Part shown: one piece after another, positions 20,146 to 31,787 of the stretch
Layout: the number at the start of each line of letters is the position of its first letter
Position numbering within the stretch: the stretch's first letter is position 1
DNA from: a virus
IMG/VR virus record: IMGVR_UViG_3300010368_000056
Span: 1-31,787 of that record
Reading direction: 5' to 3' (one strand)
DNA: 31,787 nucleotides
Notes under the pieces: model-generated
What the model was told of the DNA's origin: nothing
The model's database searches: none
Seen by the model: only the letters and a program-made list of their open reading frames with translations
Translations under genes and position numbers: made by a program

Positions 20146-20175
20146 AGTAGTAAAGTTGTGGATAGGGACAAGATA

Positions 20176-22398
20176 ATGAATGTTTTAAATTTTGGCAAGA
20201 CGCCCAGAGAGGTAACAGAGAGAATTTCAAGAGAAGTTCCCCGTAGTGTCCAATTGAGCGCACTAATCGAAACGTTTCCTCAAGGGGTACAGCGTGGCAA
20301 AGAGTTTTTCATCGGATCATTGCAAGGCGAAGCAGGGCAATCACTGCGCATAAACATTGATACTAGCAGTCCTTGGTTCCTGACAGGCAAAGATTTCGAA
20401 TCAGGTGATGGCATCGGGGGCATTTGTAAGGTATTTAAAGAAGCACGCGGGTATTCCCTATCTGAATGCGTGGATTACTTCAAAGATTACATCTCAGCAG
20501 ACTACGTTGCTCCGCCAGAAAACATTGTTAAGCCGAACAATCCAGTTAACTTTTCCGTATTGGCGACTCCTCCGCCCCCAGCAGTGCAGCCAGAACCCGA
20601 ACAAAAGCGTACAATCAGTCCCAGTACACCGTTCGAAGACGAATATTCATACACTGATGCTGATGGCGTGGTTCTCGTAACAGTTAGAAAATACTTTGAC
20701 CGGGATGCAACTGGAGAAATTGTTCGGGATAGTGCTGGCAAACCAAAGAAACAATTCCGTCAGTTCATGGATGGTCGCCAAGGTATTCCTGAACCCAGAC
20801 CATTATACAATATCCCGAACGTTTTAAGTGCGAACACAGTTATCTGGGTCGAAGGCGAAAAGTGCGCGGATGCTCTAACACAGCTAGGATATACAGCGAC
20901 TTGTACCATCGGTGGTGCAGGTATGCTGTCTGAAAACACAGCCAGTAAGTTTGACTTCACGCAACTGCGCAACAAAGATTTGGTCTTATGGCCTGATAAC
21001 GATGAGGCAGGCAAGAAATTAGCTCGGATTGTAGAGGCACAAGCCAAAGAAGCGGGTGCGAAAAGCACACTAACTCTGCAAATTCCTGCGACAAAAGAAG
21101 AAAAGTGGGACGCCGCAGACGCTATTGATGAGGGCTTTGACATTGATAAGTTCATCAAGTCACAGAAGAGCAAAGTCAAAAAGCCAATCTCCCTGCTAGA
21201 CGAAAGCCTGTTGATCGACAAATACTTTGTCGGATCACCACCTCAGCAACATTTCTTGGTGGGTGACACCATTCCGCTCGGAGTTCCCGCGGTGTTTGCC
21301 GCGGCAGGCGATAGCGGCAAAGGCATGATGACACTCGATTTGGCAATGAAAGTCGCATCGGGCGCATCTATGCAAAGCGCATTCGGTGGCCTCGTCGCAG
21401 AGCATGGTGATGTTATTCTAATCACAGCGGAAGACGATAAAGACGAAATGCACAGACGTATCTCGCGTCTTGATCCACAGAAATACCGCGAGCATTACGA
21501 TCACCAACTGCGCATCTTGCCATTGCCTAACCTCGGCGGCGTGTTCCCAATCATGCAGAAGTTCGACAGTAGCTACCTGATGGGCGCAGAGTTCGAGCGC
21601 ATCTATGAGCAAATGCTTGAGCTATCGAACCTAAAGCTAATTATTATTGACCCTATGGCATCGTTTGTTCACGCAGATGTAAACGCTGATCCCGCGGCAG
21701 GAGCCGCATTCATGGGTCTGTTGGCGCAAATGGCAACCGAAACAGGCGCAACAGTCATGGTCAATCACCACATGGCGAAGATCAAAGACAACGATCCAGT
21801 TAAAACACCTGAGCAAGCTCGTAACCTCATTCGGGGTACATCCGCTATTGTTGATGGCGTGCGTTGTGCCTTCTCTGTTTGGTCTGTTGACGAAACAACA
21901 GGCAAGCAGCGGTGTAAAGATTTGGGCATAGAGTACACAAGAAACGGTGTGTTCGATGGCGCTGTCGTAAAATCAAACGGGCCAGCCAATCGTGACATAC
22001 GACACTTCATTCGTAACCCGAACACTGGTCTTTTAGAAGATCGCTCCGTCGATATTAGATCGCTCGCGCTGTCCCATACTGTCCGTCAACGCATGACGCA
22101 CATTGTTGATTTCGTTCGCATGAGAGAAAACGAAGGACGCGCAGTATCTCAAGGCGGTGTGCATGATGGCATATACGCCGCTATCCATGAATCAAGTTCT
22201 CCAGAGCCATGCGCAATATACCTGAAAGGCGCAGGCAGAGAGTCAACAATTAAATCCGCAGTAACGGATGCTTGCGAAGCTGGGCTGATTCGTAAGTACA
22301 CAATGACGGCAGGCGGGTCTGAAAAGTGGCTGGGAACTATGGATGGGCCACTATCTCGTGGCGAATATGAAAGAGAAACGGGCCGGGATAACATATAA
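20176..22398 (+). CDS. TOPRIM primase fused to RepA-like helicase
   Basis: This 740-residue replicative primase-helicase has a TOPRIM core, VEGEK at 225-229 and PDNDEAG at 273-279, preceded by a DNA-binding N-terminal half with a proline-rich linker (about 130-150). The C-terminal half is an AAA_25/RepA-type ATPase, with AAAGDSGKGM (Walker A) at 375-384, LITAEDD at 415-421 and LIIIDPM (Walker B) at 488-494, ending in a winged-helix-like tail. It would synthesise primers and unwind the fork. I take the ATG at 20176, with AGGGA 8 bases upstream, rather than the GTG at 20158. A terminator follows. Confidence 0.9.
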   Translation: MNVLNFGKTPREVTERISREVPRSVQLSALIETFPQGVQRGKEFFIGSLQGEAGQSLRINIDTSSPWFLTGKDFESGDGIGGICKVFKEARGYSLSECVDYFKDYISADYVAPPENIVKPNNPVNFSVLATPPPPAVQPEPEQKRTISPSTPFEDEYSYTDADGVVLVTVRKYFDRDATGEIVRDSAGKPKKQFRQFMDGRQGIPEPRPLYNIPNVLSANTVIWVEGEKCADALTQLGYTATCTIGGAGMLSENTASKFDFTQLRNKDLVLWPDNDEAGKKLARIVEAQAKEAGAKSTLTLQIPATKEEKWDAADAIDEGFDIDKFIKSQKSKVKKPISLLDESLLIDKYFVGSPPQQHFLVGDTIPLGVPAVFAAAGDSGKGMMTLDLAMKVASGASMQSAFGGLVAEHGDVILITAEDDKDEMHRRISRLDPQKYREHYDHQLRILPLPNLGGVFPIMQKFDSSYLMGAEFERIYEQMLELSNLKLIIIDPMASFVHADVNADPAAGAAFMGLLAQMATETGATVMVNHHMAKIKDNDPVKTPEQARNLIRGTSAIVDGVRCAFSVWSVDETTGKQRCKDLGIEYTRNGVFDGAVVKSNGPANRDIRHFIRNPNTGLLEDRSVDIRSLALSHTVRQRMTHIVDFVRMRENEGRAVSQGGVHDGIYAAIHESSSPEPCAIYLKGAGRESTIKSAVTDACEAGLIRKYTMTAGGSEKWLGTMDGPLSRGEYERETGRDNI

Positions 22399-27299: not shown

Positions 27300-27521
27300 T
27301 TATTTTAATCCGAGCAATTTCCTTACCCAGTGTTTTTTGACTGCTTCGGGGGGCGCTTCTTTATTCTTGCCCTTCAGAACAACAATCCTATTCGTAACGC
27401 TTGGCATTGTTCTATTCATAGTTGCCGCAATCATCCTGACCTTAAAGCCCTTATCGACCATATCAAGTAAGGCGCTGTCGTCGTATTCAGTCCACTTCTT
27501 ATACGTTCTTTTCTTAGTCAT
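27300..27521 (-). CDS. small SANT/Myb-like helix-turn-helix protein
   Basis: The 73-residue, very basic protein carries KWTEYDDSALLDMVDKGFKV then RMIAATMNRTMPSVTNRIVV. This is the W-x3-D/E-x3-L-x3-V-x-G pattern and a second helix ending in RT-x-SV-x-x-R, as in Myb/SANT-like or GcrA-like DNA-binding helices. The C-terminal tail is lysine-rich. It has a good ribosome binding site (AGGAGAG) and is the last gene before a strong terminator. A phage transcription regulator is the likely role. Confidence 0.75.
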   Translation of the reverse strand: MTKKRTYKKWTEYDDSALLDMVDKGFKVRMIAATMNRTMPSVTNRIVVLKGKNKEAPPEAVKKHWVRKLLGLK

Positions 27522-27881: not shown

Positions 27882-28021
27882 GCGTCCTCCCTCTTTCGCT
27901 CAACAGGAATTAAAAATTTAGCGTGCACATAGCCGCCAGACATAGAGCTAATTGCGTAATGATTCGGGCAAGTTTTCAGCCAAGCCAAGAACTCTTCTAA
28001 GTTTTCAACTTGACCACTCAC
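27878..28021 (-). CDS. 47-residue small protein with a GTG start
   Basis: GTG at 28021 overlaps the previous stop (GTGA), and the TGA at 27880-27878 overlaps the next ATG (ATGA). The product has a helix QVENLEEFLAWLKTCPNHY, then AISSMSGGYVHAKFLIPVE, a plausible helix-strand-strand mini-fold. A good overlap on each side and a plausible protein composition support it; no family is recognised. It fills what would otherwise be a 136-base hole. Confidence 0.6.
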   Translation of the reverse strand: MSGQVENLEEFLAWLKTCPNHYAISSMSGGYVHAKFLIPVERKREDA

Positions 28022-28419
28022 GCCGCTACCTCCTCAGCTTCAGACAACGCAACGCGTAAACAATAATCATCAAGGCCAAAATCTTTGTAGCCGTCCTCAA
28101 TCATTTTGTAATAGCCCCCGTTCGGTGGACTTGTTCGGCTTTTGTCGTTCATCTCGTAAACGATCCAGTCCGTGTTGATCTTGCGCCTGTTGTATAAGTG
28201 CGGATAACCCTCCAACTTGTCCAACGCACGCAAGCAATCGTGTGTGATCTCCCACAGCACAACAGGACAAATGCTGTCCATGTCGGGTACAATATCAGCA
28301 ACACCGCGGAAAACTAACCGAGTGTCGGGCAGGTAAAACCCGCCCAACGGTTTAGCCTTCGGGCAACGCACCTTCATTGCGTCCCTGTTCGTGTTCATTC
28401 CATATGCCATATATAACAT
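28018..28419 (-). CDS. gamma-glutamylcyclotransferase-like (GGCT/AIG2) protein
   Basis: The 133-residue protein starts LYMAYGMNTN, the Y-G-x-N substrate loop at the N-terminus of the GGCT fold. It has LGGFYLPDTRLVFRGVADIV, then LWEITHDCLRALDKLEGYPH, where LDKLEGYP supplies the catalytic Glu70. It ends YKMIEDGYKDFGLDDYCLRV, the usual C-terminal part. These enzymes release 5-oxoproline from gamma-glutamyl amines or peptides. Its ATG overlaps the previous stop (TAATG). It lies about 2.4 kb from an amidoligase gene; amidoligases and GGCT-fold enzymes are known partners. Confidence 0.85.
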   Translation of the reverse strand: MLYMAYGMNTNRDAMKVRCPKAKPLGGFYLPDTRLVFRGVADIVPDMDSICPVVLWEITHDCLRALDKLEGYPHLYNRRKINTDWIVYEMNDKSRTSPPNGGYYKMIEDGYKDFGLDDYCLRVALSEAEEVAA

Positions 28420-28720: not shown

Positions 28721-28765
28721 TTTACTAGATGTCCCACTTATACCCACACCATATAGGCGCGTCAA
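28721..28765 (-). promoter_or_regulatory. strong leftward promoter of the control region
   Basis: On the minus strand TTGACG (28765-28760), 17 bases and TATAAG (28742-28737). The spacer is CCTATATGGTGTGGG, the box shared with the 30144 promoter and, reversed, the 14866 one. TCTAGTAAA (28729-28721) starts 7 bases after the -10 box and is followed by ACGGAG. Confidence 0.75.
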
Positions 28766-28807
28766 GCAAAAAAGGTAAAAAAAATTATGTATTGATTTTA
28801 AACGATA

Positions 28808-28970
28808 TTTTACGTCAAAAAAAAGCGCGTCAAAAGTTGACGTAGTTGACGTAATGTTGATTATTAAACAATATCAATGGTTTGCAAGTTTACGTCAACT
28901 ACGTCAAAAATCTGATTTGACGTAGAAAATGCAATAAAATCAATAGGTTATTTTACGTCAACTACGTCAC
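28808..28970. repeat. ACGTCA iteron-like array in the divergent control region
   Basis: ACGTCA occurs forward at 28812, 28892, 28901, 28955 and 28964, and in reverse (TGACGT) at 28838, 28847 and 28918. Three sites are double: TTACGTCAACTACGTCA-type units at 28836-28854 (reverse), 28889-28906 and 28951-28970, each with hexamers 9 bases apart. The rest of the region is very AT-rich. It separates the leftward and rightward promoters. It could be an operator cluster, a replication origin with iterons, or both. Confidence 0.8.
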
Positions 28971-29010
28971 CCCCTATAAGGGGGGGTATATACCCTACCC
29001 CCCTTGATGT
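28952..29010 (+). promoter_or_regulatory. rightward promoter and GC-rich leader of the terminase gene
   Basis: TTTACG (28952-28957), 17 bases and TATAAG (28975-28980) form a promoter whose spacer contains both ACGTCA hexamers of the last double site, so a bound protein would repress or replace RNA polymerase. Downstream, CCCCCTATAAGGGGG (28970-28984) is a hairpin and GGGTATATACCC (28984-28995) a perfect palindrome, followed by CCCCCC. These may fold in the 5' leader of the terminase transcript. Confidence 0.55.
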
Positions 29011-29114
29011 AATTATTGATGATGCGATTAATGTTTAAGGTATGGGAACTGTTGGGCTTGCATGGGTTGCCCGTTGTCGGTATTGTAAAGGCAAGAGCAA
29101 GACAAGGAATGACA

Positions 29115-29639
29115 ATGCCCAAGGTTGGTGAACAAGTCGAGAAGGGTGTGAAGCGTCTTACGCCCCCACAACAAAAGTTTCTTGATAACTACATTCACAA
29201 GGATATGACGCAGACGGGTGCGGCAAGAGCCGCAGGATATAAAAACCCGAACGTGTCAGCCGTACAGCTTCTCAATCACCCACGGGTGAAAGAACGCATG
29301 GAAGAAATGCGACAAGAGCTAGAAAGCAAATACGGCGTGTCCGTAACCAAATCTGTTCGGGATATGCAAAGGCTCAGAGATGAAGCATGGCAGGCAGGGA
29401 ACTTCGGGGCCGCAATCAAGGCAGAAGAACTGCGCCTGAAGGTGACTGGACTCATGGTAGCCCGTAGCCATGTAACGCACGAAAATGTGGACAACCTCAC
29501 ACGGGATCAGATCGTTGAACAACTGCAAGAGTTTATGGCTCGCGCTAAAGATCGCATGATTGACGTAACACCAACAGAAAATCCCACAGAATCCGAACAA
29601 ATCCCTATAACAGATTATAACGGCGAAGCCGTAAAATAG
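29115..29639 (+). CDS. terS: terminase small subunit
   Basis: The 174-residue protein is a Terminase_2-type small subunit. LTPPQQKFLDNYIHKDMTQT (15-34) is followed by GAARAAGYKNPNVSAVQLLN and PRVKERM, the usual helix-turn-helix with 'G-x-A-x-A-A-x-x-A-G-Y' and a 'L-x-x-P-x-V' end. A coiled coil follows (residues 60-115). It would recognise the packaging site and load the large subunit. I chose the ATG at 29115, 6 bases after AAGGA; an ATG at 29109 touches that site and an in-frame extension to 29016 has no ribosome binding site. No large subunit follows it in this window. Confidence 0.85.
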   Translation: MPKVGEQVEKGVKRLTPPQQKFLDNYIHKDMTQTGAARAAGYKNPNVSAVQLLNHPRVKERMEEMRQELESKYGVSVTKSVRDMQRLRDEAWQAGNFGAAIKAEELRLKVTGLMVARSHVTHENVDNLTRDQIVEQLQEFMARAKDRMIDVTPTENPTESEQIPITDYNGEAVK

Positions 29640-30099
29640 CGCGTGCGCCCCATGTGGGGTGGCTGGCGGGGTCGTAGACCCCCCAAAAACGCCCCCAGAA
29701 CGCCGAAGCGTACCTGTTCGGGGTTCGGGGTGCCAAACTTGTTCGGGATGACTCACAGCGCAGCCCAGCAGCTTTTTAAAAATCAGGAAACGCAGCCAGC
29801 GATTCGGGCCGCAGCGAGTCTGCTCGGACCATAACCCGACAAATTGTTCGGGTTCGGGGTTCATGATTCAGGCTGCACGGGAATCATCGGGCTGCAACTT
29901 CCGGGCAGCTAAAGATTCGGGGCCGGGTGTTTGCAGCCGGGGAGAACAACCCGATGAATTGTTCGGGTTCGGGTTCCGGGCAATAGCTGCCGGGTGATTC
30001 CGCCGGGCCGCAGCCTCCGGGTAGAGATGACTCCGGGTCGCAGCCAGCCCGGAGAGTCACAACCCGAACAATTGTCCGAAAGCTGCCGGGCCGCTGCGT
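29640..30099. repeat. GC-rich repeat region with three regularly spaced palindromes
   Basis: After the terminase gene, 460 bases contain no plausible gene. Three copies of an 18-base near-palindrome, CCCGAACAATTGTTCGGG type, lie at 29835-29852, 29950-29967 and 30063-30080, with centres 115 and 113 bases apart; a shorter TTGTTCGGG occurs at about 29738. Between them are TTCGGG, CCGGG and GCAGC/GCTGC words, and hairpins such as GGGGTC-GTA-GACCCC near 29670. The units look like a diverged tandem repeat of about 114 bases. A packaging (pac/cos-like) or regulatory role is possible. Confidence 0.65.
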
Positions 30100-30133
30100 G
30101 GTGCTGCGAGTCAGCAGCGCCGAATCTTTTTTT
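30100..30133 (+). terminator. rho-independent terminator after the repeat region
   Basis: GGTGCTGC (30100-30107), loop GAGTCA and GCAGCGCC (30114-30121) form an 8-bp stem with one wobble, followed after five bases by seven Ts (30127-30133). If transcripts from the terminase promoter reach it, the whole repeat region is part of their 3' end. Confidence 0.75.
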
Positions 30134-30143
30134 AATTTACCTG

Positions 30144-30189
30144 TTGACATACTATATAGTGTGGGATATTGTGGGAGTATTCTAGTAGA
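30144..30189 (+). promoter_or_regulatory. promoter of the 30201 gene
   Basis: TTGACA (30144-30149), 17 bases and TATTGT (30167-30172) form the best sigma70 promoter in the window. The spacer is TACTATATAGTGTGGGA, with the ATATRGTGTGG box; GTGGGAGTAT follows the -10 box. TCTAGTAGA (30181-30189) starts 8 bases after the -10 box and runs into GAGGAG. Confidence 0.8.
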
Positions 30190-30200
30190 GGAGAGAGAAG

Positions 30201-30497: not shown

Positions 30498-30500
30498 ACA

Positions 30501-30548
30501 ATCGGGCTTCGGGGTTCGGGCTTTCGGGTTCGGGCTTCGGGGTCGGGG
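30501..30548. repeat. short tandem array of TTCGGG
   Basis: Five TTCGGG copies lie at 30508, 30515, 30523, 30529 and 30536, at 6-8-base spacing, followed by TCGGGG. They directly follow the stop of the 30201 gene. The array is too short to encode anything and may bind the same factor as the palindrome half-sites. Confidence 0.65.
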
Positions 30549-30646
30549 TATAGTATATATACATAGGTATATATACCTATATATACACACATATATACAC
30601 ACACATACACATGCGTTCCTTATAAATATAAAAAAACCGTTTTTCG
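30549..30646. repeat. TA/CA-rich low-complexity stretch with an 18-base palindrome
   Basis: ATAGGTATATATACCTAT (30563-30580) is a perfect 18-base palindrome, flanked by TATA and ACACA runs to about 30608. It is easily melted DNA, and could be a DNA unwinding element, a polymerase slippage site or a short operator. I see no gene here. Confidence 0.5.
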
Positions 30647-30672
30647 CGCTGGATTTTTCCAGCGTTTTTTTT
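30647..30672 (+). terminator. terminator after the 30201 gene region
   Basis: CGCTGG (30647-30652), loop ATTTTT and CCAGCG (30659-30664) followed by eight Ts (30665-30672) form a strong rho-independent terminator. It separates the 30201 transcript from the amidoligase gene. Confidence 0.85.
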
Positions 30673-30699
30673 GGCGCGGCGCTGGTCTGAAATCATAAG

Positions 30700-30803
30700 C
30701 CGAACAATTGTTCCAGATATTCCCATAAAATCTCTTGTCTTATGGGATAAAATGGTGCATAAACTAGGTATAGGGCGACAGCTTTGCCCTACAATCTAGT
30801 AAA
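30700..30803 (+). promoter_or_regulatory. operator, hairpin and leader of the amidoligase gene
   Basis: CCGAACAATTGTTCC (30700-30714) is a near-perfect copy of the window's palindrome. Downstream TTGTCT (30735-30740) and CATAAA (30759-30764) are a weak promoter pair with an 18-base spacer. TAGGGC (30771-30776) pairs with GCCCTA (30786-30791). TACAAT (30790-30795) and TCTAGTAAA (30795-30803) then precede AAAGGAAG, so the leader element is kept although the promoter differs. Confidence 0.5.
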
Positions 30804-30818
30804 AAGGAAGTAAAAACA

Positions 30819-31787
30819 ATGACTTACACATTTGGAATAGAAATCGAAACAAGCGGCGCAAATATCGCAATAATAAAAAACGCGTTTGATCGTGCCGAAA
30901 TTCGCGGCTGTGATGTAAAACCCGATGGCACGCCGCGCGTTGACGCCGAAATAGTTTTACCACCATTAGCGCCATGTGATTTCGCATTCGATTATATCAA
31001 GAAAATTTGCCGCGTTCTTTCAGACGTTGGCGCGAACGTGAATTCGTCATGCGGTTTGCACGTTCACATTGGCAATGCGCCGCTTAACGATAGCACGCAC
31101 GCCGTTCGCTTTTGTGGCGATAGCATCCACTCACGCGCCACCACAGGCCGATACATCACAGGCGCATATGGCGAGCCAATGGATTTTATCGCGGTACAAG
31201 ATATTATGCGCCGCTATACGCGCCAACAAGATGCGGTCAATTCAATGTTCCCTAGATCAAGAACAGACAACCGCTATTGCTCGCCATTAAGCACGCGCCG
31301 TATTGAGAACGCTTCAAACATTAGCGAATTGACGTTCGGCAAATTCACGACGATTAATTTGCAAACATGGTCACGCGGCACAATTGAATTCAGACAAGCG
31401 TCTGGAACAATAGAAGCCGACAAAATTATCAATTGGGTCAAATTCCTTTTAAACCTTGTTGACCATACCAACGCCAACCGCGTCGAAAATGGCAACCGAA
31501 CAATTGTTACTGATACGCCAGAGCAACCATTCAGACGCGGCGCACGCGTTGGCGTTCAATATACAATGATGCGCTCAGACGGTGGCGCGACTACACAGCA
31601 AATAATGGATGCGACAGGCTGTAGTGAACAGCGCGTTCGCGCCGCGGTTTCTGAAATACGTTCACGCGTTGGCGATGCGGCTGTTGTCACTAACACGCAA
31701 CAAGCGAATGGTGCGCGATATGGCGATGGCACGCACCATACAAGCTATACGGTTTTATTCTCTTTCGAGACTGAAGGAAGCGGCGCG
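30819..31787 (+). CDS. amidoligase family enzyme with C-terminal winged-helix (partial)
   Basis: The frame is open to the window edge; 323 residues are visible. FGIEIE at 5-10, CGLHVHIG at 78-85 and GTIEFRQASGT at 187-197 are the motifs of the glutamine-synthetase-fold Amidoligase_2 family (recalled as PF12224), ATP-dependent COOH-NH2 ligases. After a linker, residues about 256-283 (ATTQQIMDATGCSEQRVRAA and onward) form a helix-turn-helix, followed by strands (TSYTVLFSFE), a likely winged helix. GCGC-rich codon use differs from neighbouring genes and suggests separate acquisition. The ATG is 8 bases after AAGGAAG. The C-terminus lies outside the window. Confidence 0.85.
   Translation, partial: MTYTFGIEIETSGANIAIIKNAFDRAEIRGCDVKPDGTPRVDAEIVLPPLAPCDFAFDYIKKICRVLSDVGANVNSSCGLHVHIGNAPLNDSTHAVRFCGDSIHSRATTGRYITGAYGEPMDFIAVQDIMRRYTRQQDAVNSMFPRSRTDNRYCSPLSTRRIENASNISELTFGKFTTINLQTWSRGTIEFRQASGTIEADKIINWVKFLLNLVDHTNANRVENGNRTIVTDTPEQPFRRGARVGVQYTMMRSDGGATTQQIMDATGCSEQRVRAAVSEIRSRVGDAAVVTNTQQANGARYGDGTHHTSYTVLFSFETEGSGA

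Follow-up and report, generated by a model that had tools for sequence, protein, structure and literature searches.

Upstream of the small terminase gene terS in the 31,787-nucleotide stretch of viral DNA analyzed here (hereafter the window), the hexamer ACGTCA recurs within a short AT-rich tract, raising the question of what this cluster does and which protein reads it. Eight exact hexamers lie within 28812–28969, starting at 28812(+), 28838(−), 28847(−), 28892(+), 28901(+), 28918(−), 28955(+), and 28964(+). The whole window contains 25 ACGTCA hexamers against 12.9 expected, an expectation that corresponds to 0.07 per 170 bp, and the probability of at least eight arising there by chance is approximately 1e-14. 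The array region is 32% GC, compared with 46% for the window. The eight sites, including three double sites in AT-rich DNA, had been noted in a preliminary description that offered either a repressor operator or a replication origin as their function, and the count, arrangement, and base composition are confirmed here. Most probably, the cluster is the core of a phage replication origin whose ACGTCA iterons are read by a fused primase-helicase-initiator, with both binding and origin activity predicted from comparison of sequences.

The whole origin-like element spans 28806–29012 and comprises the iteron array, two IHF-consensus sites, and a GC palindrome, a layout that is kept in relatives. 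Each of the three double sites is an exact copy of the 17-mer TTACGTCAACTACGTCA; they lie at 28838–28854 (−, the inverted copy), 28890–28906 (+), and 28953–28969 (+), the last abutting the palindrome. Two single ACGTCA sites complete the set, one at 28812–28817 (+), exact in 28/28 non-redundant relatives, and one at 28918–28923 (−). A ninth site, GCGTCA at approximately 28827–28832 (+), carries one mismatch, and its slot holds an exact ACGTCA in most relatives. On the far side of the palindrome, at approximately 29002–29010 (−), lies a degenerate tenth iteron, TTGATGTAA, with counterparts in relatives that differ by motif class (for example, TTGGAGTAG alongside ACTCCA repeats and CTCATGTAA alongside ACATGA repeats). 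The combination of short repeats, fixed spacing, and AT-rich DNA by which iteron origins are recognized is present in the array.

The IHF consensus WATCAANNNNTTR occurs four times in the window, and two of these occurrences, both perfect, fall within the array: site 1 at 28872–28884 (+, TATCAATGGTTTG) and site 2 at 28938–28950 (+, AATCAATAGGTTA). Both slots are kept in the 29 non-redundant relatives described below. Slot 1 has no mismatch in 22 and one mismatch in 7 (0.4% and 4%, respectively, in shuffles), and slot 2, which is also kept in other motif classes, is exact in 24/29, with one mismatch in the remainder. Across these relatives, the fixed positions of the IHF sites are 95% conserved versus 65% for the N positions. 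To the right of the last double site, the GC palindrome block CCCCCTATAAGGGGGGGTATATACCCTACCCC (28970–29001) displays a C-run/TATA/G-run palindrome, CCCCCTATAAGGGGGGG. A palindrome of at least four Cs and at least four Gs is found in every motif class, approximately 145–171 bp upstream of terS. As single-stranded DNA, the block was predicted to fold into a hairpin no better than its shuffles (z −1.0 and −0.3), and an Rfam search returned no match.

In the preliminary description, the array was placed between divergent promoters, with one double site overlapping the rightward one. The leftward early promoter (TTGACG-N17-TATAAG, 28737–28765, −; −35 box 28765–28760, −10 box 28742–28737), which has a TTGACA-type counterpart in relatives with other motif classes, lies outside the array. 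The supposed rightward promoter over the last double site corresponds to no more than the TATA center of the palindrome, and a plausible terS promoter (TTGCAT-N17-TATTGT, 29058–29086, +) is located downstream of the array. Cumulative GC skew, suggested earlier as a check on replication start, has its minimum at the element in 7/7 near-complete genomes (within 1.2% of genome length), but this support is weak, since the skew switch coincides with the switch in transcription direction.

Scanning IMG/VR with the 17-mer retrieved 90 stretches, approximately 77 of which are similar to the window and show the array with nearly the same spacings; 29 remained after removal of near-copies. The other 13 contigs do not resemble the window and probably matched by chance. 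In the 29 non-redundant relatives, the site columns are 97% conserved, a value due in part to selection of this set by the 17-mer itself, and the palindrome block 85%, compared with 57% at the third codon positions of terS and 46% in the leader adjoining the palindrome. A blastn search against phage records gave no match. A second set, free of this selection bias, was chosen by terS (the best 80 of 300–600 relatives in IMG/VR), and most of its members also have the layout, with or without ACGTCA. The stretch upstream of terS covered in L120, L121, L123, L131, L140, and L141 contains no such element. These six are close terS relatives with a different gene upstream of terS, and their origin may have moved elsewhere.

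Many of the 80 terS-chosen relatives contain no ACGTCA at all, but retain the spacing, both IHF boxes, and the palindrome. The earlier expectation of finding the array at the same locus in close relatives held to the extent that its absence was not observed there, although some relatives fill the same layout with a different motif. In the terS-chosen set, the replacement repeats are ACGTTA, ACGGTA/ACAGTA, ACCGGA, ACTTCA, ACATGA, TGACAAT, and ACTCCA/AGTCCA. A repeat-independent scan, using an IHF box plus GC palindrome as its signature, added an AGGCAA class and identified the element also in phage contigs that lack a related terS, with repeats such as GGTGCA, AACCTTCGCA, AAGTGGGCC, AACTTG, AAACCC, GTTTCTCA, and CGATTGTTACC. 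Chance matches, namely the microvirus-like contig L220 and a second palindrome in each of L089 and L090, were set aside. Applied to 84,980 bacterial and archaeal genomes (GTDB), the same scan gave 21 matches, none with a repeat array; it thus acted as a negative control and indicated no host, and the element is therefore apparently a phage feature.

A reader of the array should change where the repeats change, and the protein that does so is the primase-helicase encoded at 20158–22398 (+), which was missing from the candidates named earlier. This 746-residue protein combines Toprim_2 and RepA-like AAA_25 domains, as assigned by Pfam and PHROG, and residues 355–577 match the RSF1010 RepA structure (PDB entry 1g8y; E 8.5e-8). 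Its C-terminal domain (residues 641–746; 22078–22395, +) was modeled with AlphaFold2 at a pLDDT of 78.6, and the order of helices and strands is that of a winged helix, with a predicted recognition helix at residues 695–707 and key residue Lys699. A Foldseek search with this model gave no significant match, and the weak ones were mostly winged-helix proteins. Between close relatives of different motif class, helicase residues 1–640 are mostly 55–95% identical, whereas residues 641–746 are only 17–42% identical. We propose, from this co-change with the motif, that the C-terminal domain reads the array.

Co-variation extends to single residues. Among 45 distinct C-termini whose contig also carries an array, a collection dominated by ACGTCA members, residue 699 is Lys in 34/35 cases paired with “ACG” arrays (ACGTCA, ACGTTA, ACGGTA) and in 0/10 of those paired with other arrays, where Asn, Ile, Leu, Gly, Glu, or Arg is found instead. 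The exception, L064, combines Ser699 with ACGTCA repeats. On two backbones (L295; L202/L143), a change from ACGTCA to ACTTCA is paired with a change from Lys to Asn at this position. Phylogenetically independent contrasts, on a tree built from the protein minus its C-terminal domain, agree in 6/6 cases (p 0.031), only six being strongly supported. Given the helicase core, motif distance correlates with recognition-helix distance (partial Mantel r 0.38, p 0.0015). When 364 windows, each 23 residues long and drawn from seven protein families, were compared, the eight highest-ranking were all in the primase-helicase, from residue 561 onward, with the best TerS window at 0.27. The exact contact residues are uncertain, since windows in residues 561–640 correlate as well as the recognition helix. 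Neither of two small proteins suggested earlier as binders behaves in this way: the Fis-like protein shows a partial r of 0.02 with the motif, and the SANT-like protein is present in only a minority of relatives.

The primase-helicase gene is not adjacent to the array in the window's phage group, lying approximately 6.5 kb away. In several unrelated phage contigs, however, the same element directly follows a primase/RepA-like helicase gene. In phages with a Prim-Pol/AAA_25 protein, it begins no more than approximately 30 bp from the primase-helicase stop codon and contains GGTGCA repeats, IHF boxes, and usually the palindrome; in L494, a member of this lineage, the repeats have shifted to GTGCAGG and the C-terminus is altered. 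Repeat arrays also lie immediately 3′ of the primase genes of two cultured phages, the Rhizobium phage RHph_Y3_1 (L387:9760–9960, CGTTCCCA/TGGGAACG) and AcaML1 (L388:8220–8321, TCTGACGG), whose primases are approximately 30–34% identical to that of the window over part of their length. In these two, the origin idea could be tested. Together, the iteron-like geometry, the IHF sites, the joint switching of motif and domain, and the position after primase-helicase genes lend support to the earlier guess of a replication origin.

Initiation at the element may proceed as follows. The primase-helicase would bind the ACGTCA iterons through its winged-helix-like C-terminal domain, and host IHF, if it occupies its two consensus sites, would bend the DNA such that the three double sites meet beside the GC palindrome. 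The helicase could then be loaded at the AT-rich stretch or at the palindrome and unwind the DNA there, and the fused primase would begin synthesis, so that replication would start at the element. As to the palindrome itself, our guess is a role in unwinding, as a cruciform, or as a primase start site.

The location of the element invites two other explanations. With early genes running leftward on one side, terS running rightward on the other, and sites oriented as they are, it would suit a regulator: a phage repressor or some small DNA-binding protein of the early genes could bind the array as an operator and so switch divergent promoters between early and late transcription. Such a function is improbable, given that the array covers neither the leftward promoter core nor the likely terS promoter, that no HTH_3 repressor of the CI/Cro type was found in any of seven near-complete genomes, that the Fis-like protein does not track the motif, and that no divergent promoter pair accompanies the element in other lineages, where it comes after a primase-helicase gene; the earlier suggestion of a repressor operator is not sustained. 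A secondary regulatory role is possible, since an array-bound initiator could also repress nearby promoters. Alternatively, the element could be a packaging start of the pac or cosB type, in which TerS binds the repeats, IHF bends the DNA, and the palindrome is the cut site. In the window's group, terS begins 105–300 bp downstream of the element, and some other lineages also have the element close to terminase genes; its sites and IHF boxes follow one another much as in lambda cosB. TerS (29115–29639, +; Terminase_2, E 7e-10) does not follow the repeats, however: residues 1–75, including the HTH, are identical in L103 (ACGGTA), L116 (ACGTCA), and L111 (ACGTTA), in L158 (ACTCCA) and L160 (ACGTCA), and in L178 (AGGCAA) and L179 (ACGTCA). 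This identity of the DNA-binding region across motif classes rules out TerS as the array reader and, with it, makes a packaging start distinctly improbable.

The ends of the contigs bear on packaging as well. The near-complete relatives are 54–60 kb long, and G005 closes into a circle of 54,491 bp through a 127-bp overlap. There are no unique ends at the element of the kind that a cos site produces, since near-complete contigs read through it with scattered ends and G005 is circular. A 1.1-kb end overlap in G004, which suggested at first that this contig ended at the palindrome, proved to be an imperfect, strain-variant overlap. A recombination or partition site, either attP-like arm sites with IHF or a centromere, was also considered, and mixed direct and inverted sites with IHF boxes are likewise a feature of attP. 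This is the most improbable of the alternatives: a tyrosine integrase (PF00589), as would accompany attP, was found in 0/7 near-complete genomes, and the 21 matches among bacterial and archaeal genomes provide no sign of integrated copies.

As a replication origin with its initiator, the system resembles several known ones without coinciding with any. In its way of working, it resembles both the IncQ replicon and the phage P4 alpha protein with its ori/crr repeats, sharing with the latter a Toprim-type primase and a helicase in one protein, with a C-terminal winged helix (predicted here). The P4 alpha helicase is of a different class from the RepA/RecA-like AAA_25 helicase found here, and the two helicases do not belong to one family; IHF sites, a GC palindrome, and widely different specificity among close relatives further distinguish the present system. 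The RepA-family helicase, as reflected in the match to 1g8y, is shared with IncQ plasmid RSF1010, which employs RepA helicase, RepB′ primase, and the iteron binder RepC. The IncQ initiator recognizes origin iterons (PMC4234260). In contrast to RSF1010, the functions here are fused in one protein with no separate RepC, and the iterons are 6–9 bp in mixed orientation rather than long direct repeats.

The likeness to lambdoid O and its origin lies in a phage initiator that acts on iterons with type-specific origin recognition (for O–ori complexes, see PMC7466680). In lambda, however, the origin lies inside gene O and the host helicase is used, whereas here the initiator includes helicase and primase. 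In its way of evolving, the system recalls the RepA/ori pair of the Vibrio cholerae satellite PLE, in which the RepA_N DNA-binding domain co-varies with the origin iterons and repeated module swaps have been demonstrated experimentally (PMC8263062). The PLE initiator domain is unrelated, and PLE is a satellite rather than a phage, with three iterons of approximately 30 bp and two specificity groups versus many here. In Gordonia phages, too, replication initiators have been noted to undergo domain replacement (PMC10684548). A search of open-licence papers found no description of the present element.

With evenly balanced confidence, we suggest that iterons, two IHF boxes, and a GC palindrome constitute a widespread phage origin architecture in which specificity has been repeatedly exchanged by swapping or re-mutation of the winged-helix domain of a fused primase-helicase. 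Several lineages together would then show approximately 15 motif types or more, and bases and residues would be linked by a readable code in which, for example, G goes with Lys699 and T with Asn699. The likely driver of this exchange would be escape from nucleases that target the origin, from satellites, or from co-infecting relatives. Since scaffold and specificity evolve separately, the hundreds of metagenomic contigs amount to a natural swap experiment on how a DNA-binding domain changes its target. Abundant uncultured marine phages gain a recognizable replication origin and a probable reader protein, and it becomes testable whether phages diversify their origins in order to evade cross-talk, satellites, or origin-targeting defenses, as has been shown for PLE and ICP1. 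The signature of IHF box and GC palindrome, being independent of the motif, can be used to locate origins in unannotated phages.

Several features of the surrounding DNA were observed in addition. To the left of the element, the gene for a GGACT/AIG2-like protein (28018–28419, −; Pfam E 2e-7) is one of those retained most widely across motif classes, and a 73-residue protein (27300–27521, −), present in some relatives only, is similar to a portion of the T5 D5-like transcription regulator family (PHROG 323, E 4e-9). To the right, between terS and the next gene, 29640–30200 and 30500–30830 contain GC-rich short repeated words and long TATATA/CACATA runs, and appear hypervariable among close relatives. 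An open frame of amidoligase-type resemblance, starting MTYTFGIEIETSGA, occupies 30950–31787 and extends past the window end; in L224, a leftward gene similar to it adjoins the element.
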